Below, piece after piece: positions 55,058 through 62,281 of a DNA stretch of 64,000 bases. The notes under the pieces are model-generated. The model saw only the letters and a list, made by a program, of their open reading frames with translations, was not told where the DNA came from and made no database searches. This stretch comes from Pseudomonas nicosulfuronedens. GTDB taxonomy: Bacteria; Pseudomonadota; Gammaproteobacteria; Pseudomonadales; Pseudomonadaceae. The stretch covers positions 124,001 through 188,000 of the forward strand of contig NZ_SWDV01000005.1 of NCBI RefSeq assembly GCF_005877905.1, read 5' to 3'. The position numbers and the translations under genes are program-made. Numbering within the stretch: the stretch's first letter is position 1; each line of letters opens with the position of its first letter.

Positions 55058-58000
55058 TCAGGATGCGTCGCGGCCCTGGGCAACCTGCCCCAGCGCCCAG
55101 GCCAGCTCACGCAGCGGTTGTTGTTCGGATTCGTGGATCTGTTGCAGTTGCTGGGCCATGCTGGGCGCGCCGAAGACGCCGCGGATGCCCTGGTCGATAT
55201 CGCCGCCGCGGCGGTCGAAGGCTTTCAACGGCTGGCTCTGATCGGAGCCGTCACGGCTGAAAACGCTCGACAGCGTGCTGCTGCCGAACACCCCACCATC
55301 ACCGCCGCCGAAGCCGAGGAAGCCGCGGCCACTGCCGTCACCGAAGGCCGAATCGCCGAACACCTGGGCGATGAAGCTCTGCGACGGCGCGCCGTTCTGG
55401 ATGAAGATATTCCCCAGGGGCGGCAGGCCGCCCACGCCTTCGGGTTGGAACAGCGACGGCGGAATCACCGGCGAGCTGTTCTGCGGTAGCACGACCACCG
55501 GTACGTTGGGCTGAATGGCGACCTGAGACGGAGCCGGCGGCACGCTCGGGTCGGTGATGCGGAACTGCGGGTCGCCATCGGACAGCGAGCCGATCACATA
55601 ACTGTCGCCGCGCAGGCCGTTGCTCAGCGCATTCCCGGCCGCGTCACGGATGTCGCCCGGATTAACCGAAAGCCCCAGACTCCCCTGCCCGCTCACGCCG
55701 CCGACGGTCACGCGGTAGATCCGCGCGTCGAGCTGCACCACCGAGACGATGCTGCCGCTGGCGGAATTGCTGGTTACCAGCGAGAAATCGCCGGCATCCA
55801 CGCCGCTGACATCTTCATCGAAGGTCACCAGGAAGTTCAGCGTGTCGGCGCCGGTCGGCGACGGGTCCAGCCGCACCACGCCGGTAGCCGTGGGTGCGCG
55901 CGTGTCCACCAGTACGCCACGGCTGTCACCGACCCCGTTCAGCGACGGGATCAGCGCATTGCCGGTGGCGTCCCGCAGCGAACCGCCGCTGGCGGAAAGG
56001 CCGCTGACCTGGATGCCGTCGGCGTCGTTGTCGCCGGCCTGGACGGTATAGCGGAACACCAGGCTGGTGCTGCCCGAGCCGCCGGCATAATCGGCGTAGA
56101 CGGTGCGCCCGCCCATGTCGATGGCCAGTCGCGGCGTGCCGTCAACCACCACGGCCTCGCTGGTCTGCACCACGAATTCCAGGGTGTCGCCGACGCTGTG
56201 CAGGCCGCCCGGCGGCACGCTGACGGCGGTGACGGTGGGCGCATCGCGGTCGATGGCGTAGACAGCGCCGGTCAGCCCGCCGGCAATGGGATTGCCCGCG
56301 GCATCGACGATGCCGGTCGCGCTGCCGTTGAGATCAAGGCCCAGCGTGCCGGTCCCGGAGATACCGCTGACGGTGACCTGATAGGTGTGTGCGTCGATCT
56401 GCTGCAGGTCGCTCAGGCTGCCCGACGCCGTGCCGGTGCTGACCAGGGCGAAGTCGCTCAGGTCCACCCCGCTCACGCCTTCGCTGAAGGTCACGGTGTA
56501 ACGCACGCTGCCGGCGTTGGAGGGCGACGGGTCGAGGCTGACGATGGCGCTGGGCGTCGGCGCCAGGGTGTCGACGATCACGCCACTGGTGCCGCCGACG
56601 TTGTTGAGCCCCAGCTCCAGGGCATTGCCGGCTGCATCGCGCAGGGTCGCGCCATTGGTCGAGAGGCCACCCACGCGGATGCCGTCGGCATCGTTATCCC
56701 CTGCCCTCACGGTGTACTGGAAGACCAGCGTGGAGCTTCCGGAGCCGGCGACGAAATCGGCGAACACCGTGGTGCCGCCGATATCCAGGGCGAGTTGCGG
56801 CACGCCGTTGACCAGTACCGCTTCGCTGGTATTGACCACGAAGGTCAGGGTGTCCCCGGCGTTGTAGGGGACGCCGGCCGGGACGCTGACACTGCTCACC
56901 GTGGGCGCCAGGGCATCGACCCGCACCCCGGAGGTGACGCTCACGTTATTGAGGGTGGCGTTGATGTTGTTGCCGACGGCGTCACGCAGGGTGCTGCCAT
57001 TGGCCTGGATGGACGAACCGAGGAGGATGCCGTCGGCATCCGAATGACCGCTGGCGACCACCAGGCGGAACACCAGGGCGTTGCTGCCACTGCCACTGAG
57101 GTACTGGGCAAACACGGTGCCGCCGTTGTCGAGGGTCACAGCGATACGCGGGATGCCGCCGGTGGTATCGACGAAAACGCCTTCACTGAAGTTGACGGTG
57201 AAGTCGAGGTTCTGCCCCGCCACGTAGGTGCCGTTGGCCGGCACGCTGACAGAGTTGATCACCGGTGCCACGCCATCGATCACCAGCGCGGCATTGGCGC
57301 CCAGGCTGTTCGCGGCTCCCGCCGCCGGCAGCGTGAGGACGGCCTGGAGGCCCAGGCTGGCAGCGCTGATCGAGGAGCCGTTGAGCGACAGCGCGCTGCT
57401 GCTGACATAGTCGAGGTCGGCGCTCCGGTCCCCGGCCTGCACCACATAGGAGAAGACCAGCGTGGAGGTGCCGCTGCCGCTTACGTAGACCGCATTACGG
57501 TCGATGAGCCCGGTTTCCAGCAGCAGGGTCGGCGTCCCGCCACTGACGACCACCGCCTGATCGAAGGTGACGATAATGCTGACGCTGTCTCCGACCTTGT
57601 AGCCGCCATCGGGGGTGGCACTGTTGACGCCGACAATGGTCGGGTTGGGCTGGCGAACGTCGATGCTGATGAAATCGGTATCGGTCCTGGCACCGCCGGA
57701 ACCGCTGAGCCCCTGGTCATTGGTGGTGATCTGCAGCGAGGCCGCACCGTAATAGCCGGAGGTAGGGCTGAACGTCATGCCCGCCAGCGCGCTGTTGATG
57801 TCAGCCTGGTTACCCACGAAGGTCATGGTGGCATCGCCGGCGCCGCTGCCAACCAGGAAGCTCAGCCCCGAGAAACTGCCCAGGCTCAGCAGCCCGTTGG
57901 TCACGGTCAGGGTTACCTGCAGGGCGCCGCCACCGGCGTCCACATCGCTGATGGATATCGCATTGCTGTTGCCGACACCGAACACCAGCGTGCCGTCCTG

Positions 58001-62281: not shown

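Follow-up and report, generated by a model that had tools for sequence, protein, structure and literature searches.

Does the DUF4347 domain near the N-terminus of a giant exported protein work as a peptidase and, if so, on what? The question is raised by gene P0001 of Pseudomonas nicosulfuronedens, which lies in a 64,000-nucleotide stretch of contig NZ_SWDV01000005.1 (positions 124,001 to 188,000), hereafter the window. An initial annotation had noticed a caspase-like His/Cys pair in this domain and had proposed an active or relic cysteine peptidase that processes or releases its own adhesin, or acts on the neighbouring LEPR segment. We favour an active clan CD peptidase related to Peptidase_C80 (C80) that would cut its own chain after export and free the stalk; taken as a whole, this explanation has about an even chance of being right. 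The parts of the gene, in window positions, are as follows.

55058..62281, minus strand: giant exported protein gene P0001 (2407 amino acids (aa), ATG start), comprising LEPR segment, DUF4347, cadherin-like stalk and C-terminal segment
62183..62212, minus strand: LEPRMLFDGA segment (residues 24-33), probable tag for the M50-HlyD export cassette
61553..62023, minus strand: DUF4347 domain (residues 87-243), from a Pfam match and a predicted clan CD (caspase-haemoglobinase) fold
61859..61861, minus strand: His141, proposed catalytic histidine in IHILSHGD, from conservation
61730..61732, minus strand: Cys184, proposed nucleophile in DILLYGCSIG, from conservation; sole cysteine of the protein
61541..61546, minus strand: Leu246-Ala247 at the DUF4347 domain end, hypothetical self-cleavage site (Leu in 77/77 aligned domains)
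55661..61516, minus strand: repeat stalk (approximately residues 256-2207), Cadherin_4 in five stretches
55061..55660, minus strand: C-terminal segment (residues 2208-2407), its end similar to the ends of loci L034-L037, L039 and L045

Translation of the gene bore out the 43-residue spacing of His141 and Cys184, as well as the placing of DUF4347 after LEPRMLFDGA and before a long repeat region. The DUF4347 match (Pfam PF14252) scored 185.9 bits against a cut-off of 24.6. The stalk, approximately 1950 residues between DUF4347 and the last 200, was repeat-like, with few Pfam matches beyond the five Cadherin_4 stretches; a tandem-95 repeat model scored on it under the model cut-off.

Fold and relatives of the DUF4347 domain

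Structure prediction and comparison with known folds came out in favour of clan CD. The predicted DUF4347 structure had the caspase-haemoglobinase fold with a predicted local distance difference test (pLDDT) score of 93, and the arrangement typical of the clan, a strand (58-64, model numbering) followed by His66 and a second strand (98-107) followed by Cys109. The best structural match among the matches listed (VIA-align, Foldseek) was Tce1 (PA0256, PDB 9qpe_G), to which model residues 8-162 aligned. Tce1 also ranked third in a sequence search of solved structures (E 0.0021); the two designed TIM barrels that topped this search were rejected, their score coming from one 28-residue stretch repeated four times. 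The literature recorded Tce1 in 2021 as a holder of DUF4347 (PMC8262886); a 2026 paper then described it as a putative cysteine protease of the Pseudomonas aeruginosa H3 type VI secretion system (T6SS), with His186 and Cys240 aligning with the TcdB dyad (PMC13323088). Tce1, a small T6SS cargo, is 310 aa long and has neither stalk nor LEPR, whereas the window protein, at 15% identity, is a giant with both. Neither DUF4347 nor adhesins are named in the main text of PMC13323088, and two papers that do name DUF4347 (PMC8262886, PMC12322963) give it no adhesin function. The fold and the label 'putative cysteine protease' are thus already published for one distant DUF4347 member; what appears to be new here, judging from sequence and predicted structure, is a giant adhesin that bears its own C80-like protease.

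The next most frequent Pfam family for DUF4347 domains was Peptidase_C80, the family of the self-processing domains of MARTX and TcdA/TcdB. It was matched by 16/48 domains (best E 0.007) and 7/30 domains (best 9.4e-5), or 23 of the 78 scanned, and by 0/5 domains in a reversed control. As in C80, the host protein is large and secreted. When sequence profiles of 77 DUF4347 domains were set against the CHAT (2) and C14 (6) sets, the result was nothing above reversed and unrelated controls. The matches listed in the fold comparison also included the OaAEP1 ligase and a GPI (glycosylphosphatidylinositol)-transamidase subunit, which would suit a clan CD transpeptidase that attaches the giant protein to a different surface molecule, in the manner of legumain-type ligases and GPI transamidase. 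Their rows were no better than the caspase rows and, while nothing specific speaks against such a ligase, we regard it as highly improbable.

Conservation of the His/Cys dyad

The expected conservation of the dyad across the family was found throughout: the pattern, read as His-(Gly/Ala) ... (Gly/Ser/Ala)-Cys, was present in 79/79 DUF4347 domains. Two of these (L107 and L108, scores under 50), both with the His and the Cys, were omitted from an alignment of the other 77. Among 33 positions tabulated in this alignment, which were those seen conserved earlier or located at the domain end, only His141, Cys184, Gly215 and Leu246 were invariant; Gly directly followed the His in 73/77 domains. A further 30 domains from 26 chosen genomes had the His and the Cys as their sole invariant columns, with the Leu column at 90% or above.

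Cys184 is the single cysteine among the 2407 residues of the window protein. The catalytic cysteine was likewise the sole one in 10 of 26 other full-length proteins of at least 1000 aa, counted from 70 residues before the DUF4347 domain; 17 had two or fewer and nine had 3 to 13. An exported protein stripped of its other cysteines yet never of Cys184 is best explained by catalysis. An alternative is that the clan CD fold persists as a relic or structural domain that retains the chain in the export channel, as a plug or anchor would, without catalysis. The position of DUF4347 does resemble that of the LapA retention module; the unbroken conservation of the dyad, its standing as the only invariant columns of the further 30 domains and the lone cysteine of the exported chain all argue against a plug, which we consider unlikely. 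Of the two states first proposed, the fold together with the dyad makes the active one likelier than the relic. On sequence and model, it is very probable that DUF4347 functions as a clan CD peptidase, and we rate its catalytic activity as likely.

Leu246 as a candidate cleavage site

Leu246, invariant in 77/77 domains, lies at the domain end, outside the Tce1-aligned part. The residue after it was Ala in 47 domains, Pro in 11, Ser in five and another in the remaining 14, one row stopping at this point. Alone among clan CD families, C80 prefers a hydrophobic P1 residue, strictly Leu; the self-cleavage of the MARTX domain takes place at Leu-Ala (PMC4357240). Leu246-Ala247 is proposed as the self-cleavage site because Leu246 is invariant and is usually part of a Leu-Ala pair resembling these C80 sites (Leu at P1, then Ala). 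By this analogy, the assignment is possible, though doubtful.

The DUF4347 domain also departs from C80 in some respects. The window domain scored 16.4 bits against Peptidase_C80 (PF11713), under the cut-off of 23.8, and is therefore not assigned to that family. DUF4347 domains also gave weak matches to unrelated families, the best being Methyltransf_11 (4/48, E 0.0007). The window stalk is adhesin-like, unlike the toxin effectors of C80 proteins. Against the proposed cut site are the 11 domains with Pro after Leu246 and beta bridges at 245 and 247 in the predicted model. Finally, the MARTX cut site is N-terminal to its protease domain, whereas the site proposed for DUF4347 is C-terminal.

The LEPR segment and the export cassette

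Of 398 genomes sampled from the phylum, 94 have DUF4347, for the most part within very large open frames; M50-HlyD occurred in 74/94 of these genomes vs 18/304 others. LEPR lay upstream of DUF4347 in 39/45 loci from genomes with an M50-HlyD match and in 0/17 from genomes without one, counted over the 62 best-scoring and chosen loci of more than 150 matches listed, with M50 scored per genome rather than per locus and with the loci taken as unrelated in the association (Fisher). These counts are partly post hoc, since the LEPR regular expression was widened once following misses (its first form gave 42/49); the wider form matched 0/62 reversed upstream stretches. Loci with M50-HlyD in the genome and no LEPR were L003, L005, L102, L108, L109 and L111, and there was no reverse case. 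Among 17 loci from named genomes, LEPR was present in 16, the M50 gene being within the fetched stretch for 13 and elsewhere in the genome for the other three; the one without LEPR, cyanobacterial L049, had no M50-HlyD match in its genome.

As LEPR presence tracks M50-HlyD in both counts, LEPR looks like part of an export route, and on sequence it is more likely that the segment belongs to the M50-HlyD export cassette, as a likely tag, which gives the motif a testable role. The initial annotation had offered LEPR as what DUF4347 cuts. A cut after its Arg that removes or releases the segment would fit the joint presence of LEPR and DUF4347 in the 42/49 loci, and several clan CD families do cleave after Arg (PMC12445089, PMC4357240). 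All 17 DUF4347 loci from genomes lacking M50-HlyD, however, have no LEPR, and when LEPR, linker and domain were co-folded, the LEPR part had a pLDDT of approximately 53-60 with no sign of docking. DUF4347 begins within 25 residues of an upstream stop codon in 8/30 further loci, so that cleavage N-terminal to it would free little or nothing, and C80, the nearest family, favours Leu over Arg. On co-folding and presence/absence we reject LEPR as a general DUF4347 substrate, and we regard a cut in it as very unlikely.

The NF012209 (LEPR-8K) model gave no match to the window protein at E up to 0.1, although LEPRMLF is visible by eye; L048 and L043 passed its cut-off. The LEPR-XLL giant proteins that it describes share the N-terminal motif, and the model is silent on DUF4347 and on the exporter. 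One published giant protein, from Vibrio, has LEPR-XLL and RTX ends (PMC10868602). L084 (genome G302) has LEPR and DUF4347 in an open frame of 316 residues that lacks a stalk, and in L085/L109 (G142) a single frame of 4156 residues contains two DUF4347 domains.

The window locus runs on past the window. An M50-HlyD gene (697 aa, contig 189820-191910) is accompanied by genes for a 439-aa HlyD protein that weakly matches GAF and for a small HlyD protein, the three together spanning 189820-194052 of contig C5 of genome G000 (L052:5821-10052), 1.8 kb past the right end of the window. A TolC-like gene accompanies the M50-HlyD cassette beside LEPR giant genes; in the window it is the following.

53508..54995, minus strand: outer membrane efflux protein (OEP, TolC-like), 495 aa, adjoining the giant gene downstream; proposed as the pore through which the giant protein leaves

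No ATP-binding cassette (ABC) protein was present among the scanned cassette proteins (HlyD, HlyD with weak GAF, M50-HlyD), the scan covering part of the neighbouring genes. M50-HlyD resembled a daptide intramembrane metalloprotease model (E 1.7e-45, under the model cut-off). A second DUF4347 gene in the same genome, with LEQRILFDGA, has its own export gene set. From these sequences, the M50-HlyD cassette may be an unusual exporter with LEPR as its tag; neither an M50-HlyD exporter of giant proteins nor collar-adhesin clusters were found in the literature at the level of listings.

DUF4347 proteins without LEPR had other ends: RTX repeats in L125 and L132 and, by eye, a glycine-rich C-terminal membrane tail in L126, L128, L136 and L138, which we take to resemble GlyGly-CTERM. 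Such differing ends indicate that the peptidase domain is independent of the exporter.

Action in cis or in trans

Upstream of P0001 are the following.

62362..63081, minus strand: phage tail collar domain protein, adjoining the giant gene upstream; a common neighbour of DUF4347 genes
63038-63580: DUF6916 gene, upstream of the collar gene

An active clan CD peptidase presented by the stalk could work in trans outside the cell, on the co-encoded tail-collar proteins, on matrix or on cells nearby. Two T6SS proteins with the clan CD fold, Tce1 and Tce2, are free-standing, and Tce2 harms yeast via its predicted active site (PMC13323088). Tail-collar genes, moreover, lie near DUF4347 genes in several unrelated settings: they were within 4 kb at 14/22 picked places on shared contigs, and a collar gene was present in 40/94 DUF4347 genomes vs 59/304 others. 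The remaining 54/94 DUF4347 genomes lack them, however, and in most loci read DUF4347 is near the N-terminus, at the cell-side and not the distal end of the chain. We regard action in trans as a minority possibility, and action in cis as evenly poised between true and false. Whatever the exporter, collar genes often stand in threes by DUF4347 genes (window 62362-63081; L123, L128, L132, L133, L136 and L138).

In the mechanism that we propose for self-cleavage, the giant chain would be exported via the non-ABC-looking cassette (HlyD, weak GAF + HlyD, M50-HlyD and TolC-like proteins), with LEPR as the likely tag. DUF4347, carried in cis near the N-terminus, would catalyse through His141 and Cys184 and, after export, would cut its own chain at the domain end, perhaps after the invariant Leu246. 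The cut would free the stalk from an N-terminal part still gripped by the export machine. Self-cutting is the most probable of the uses considered for the domain; stalk release would be its most probable purpose, at somewhat less than an even chance.

Such a domain would be the built-in counterpart of a separate protease: LapA-type adhesins are let go by the release protease LapG. The two systems share a giant repeat adhesin, a TolC-like pore and an N-terminal control region. They differ in that the window protein has the protease domain built in, and in that LapA/LapG uses an ABC transporter where the scanned DUF4347 cassettes have M50-HlyD and HlyD instead. The LapA retention module is mentioned in PMC12153261.

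In its broadest form, the proposal is of a self-releasing adhesin in which a C80-like module, with toxin self-processing domains and T6SS proteins as relatives, cleaves the chain that carries it behind an invariant Leu and has been combined with at least three routes of export; we put this forward tentatively. The routes meant are LEPR with M50-HlyD, RTX type 1, and a signal peptide paired with a membrane tail at the C-terminus. If self-cutting is true, a single point mutation in a protein with one cysteine could test how an adhesin of thousands of residues is retained and released.

Other observations

The C-terminus of the LEPR proteins of L042, L043 and L048 differs from the Pseudomonas type: it consists of a hydrophobic, membrane-like segment and a charged tail, and is a possible substrate of the neighbouring M50 protease. 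A table in PMC12322963 gives the DUF4347 protein BTH_II1339 of Burkholderia thailandensis as increased in stationary phase.
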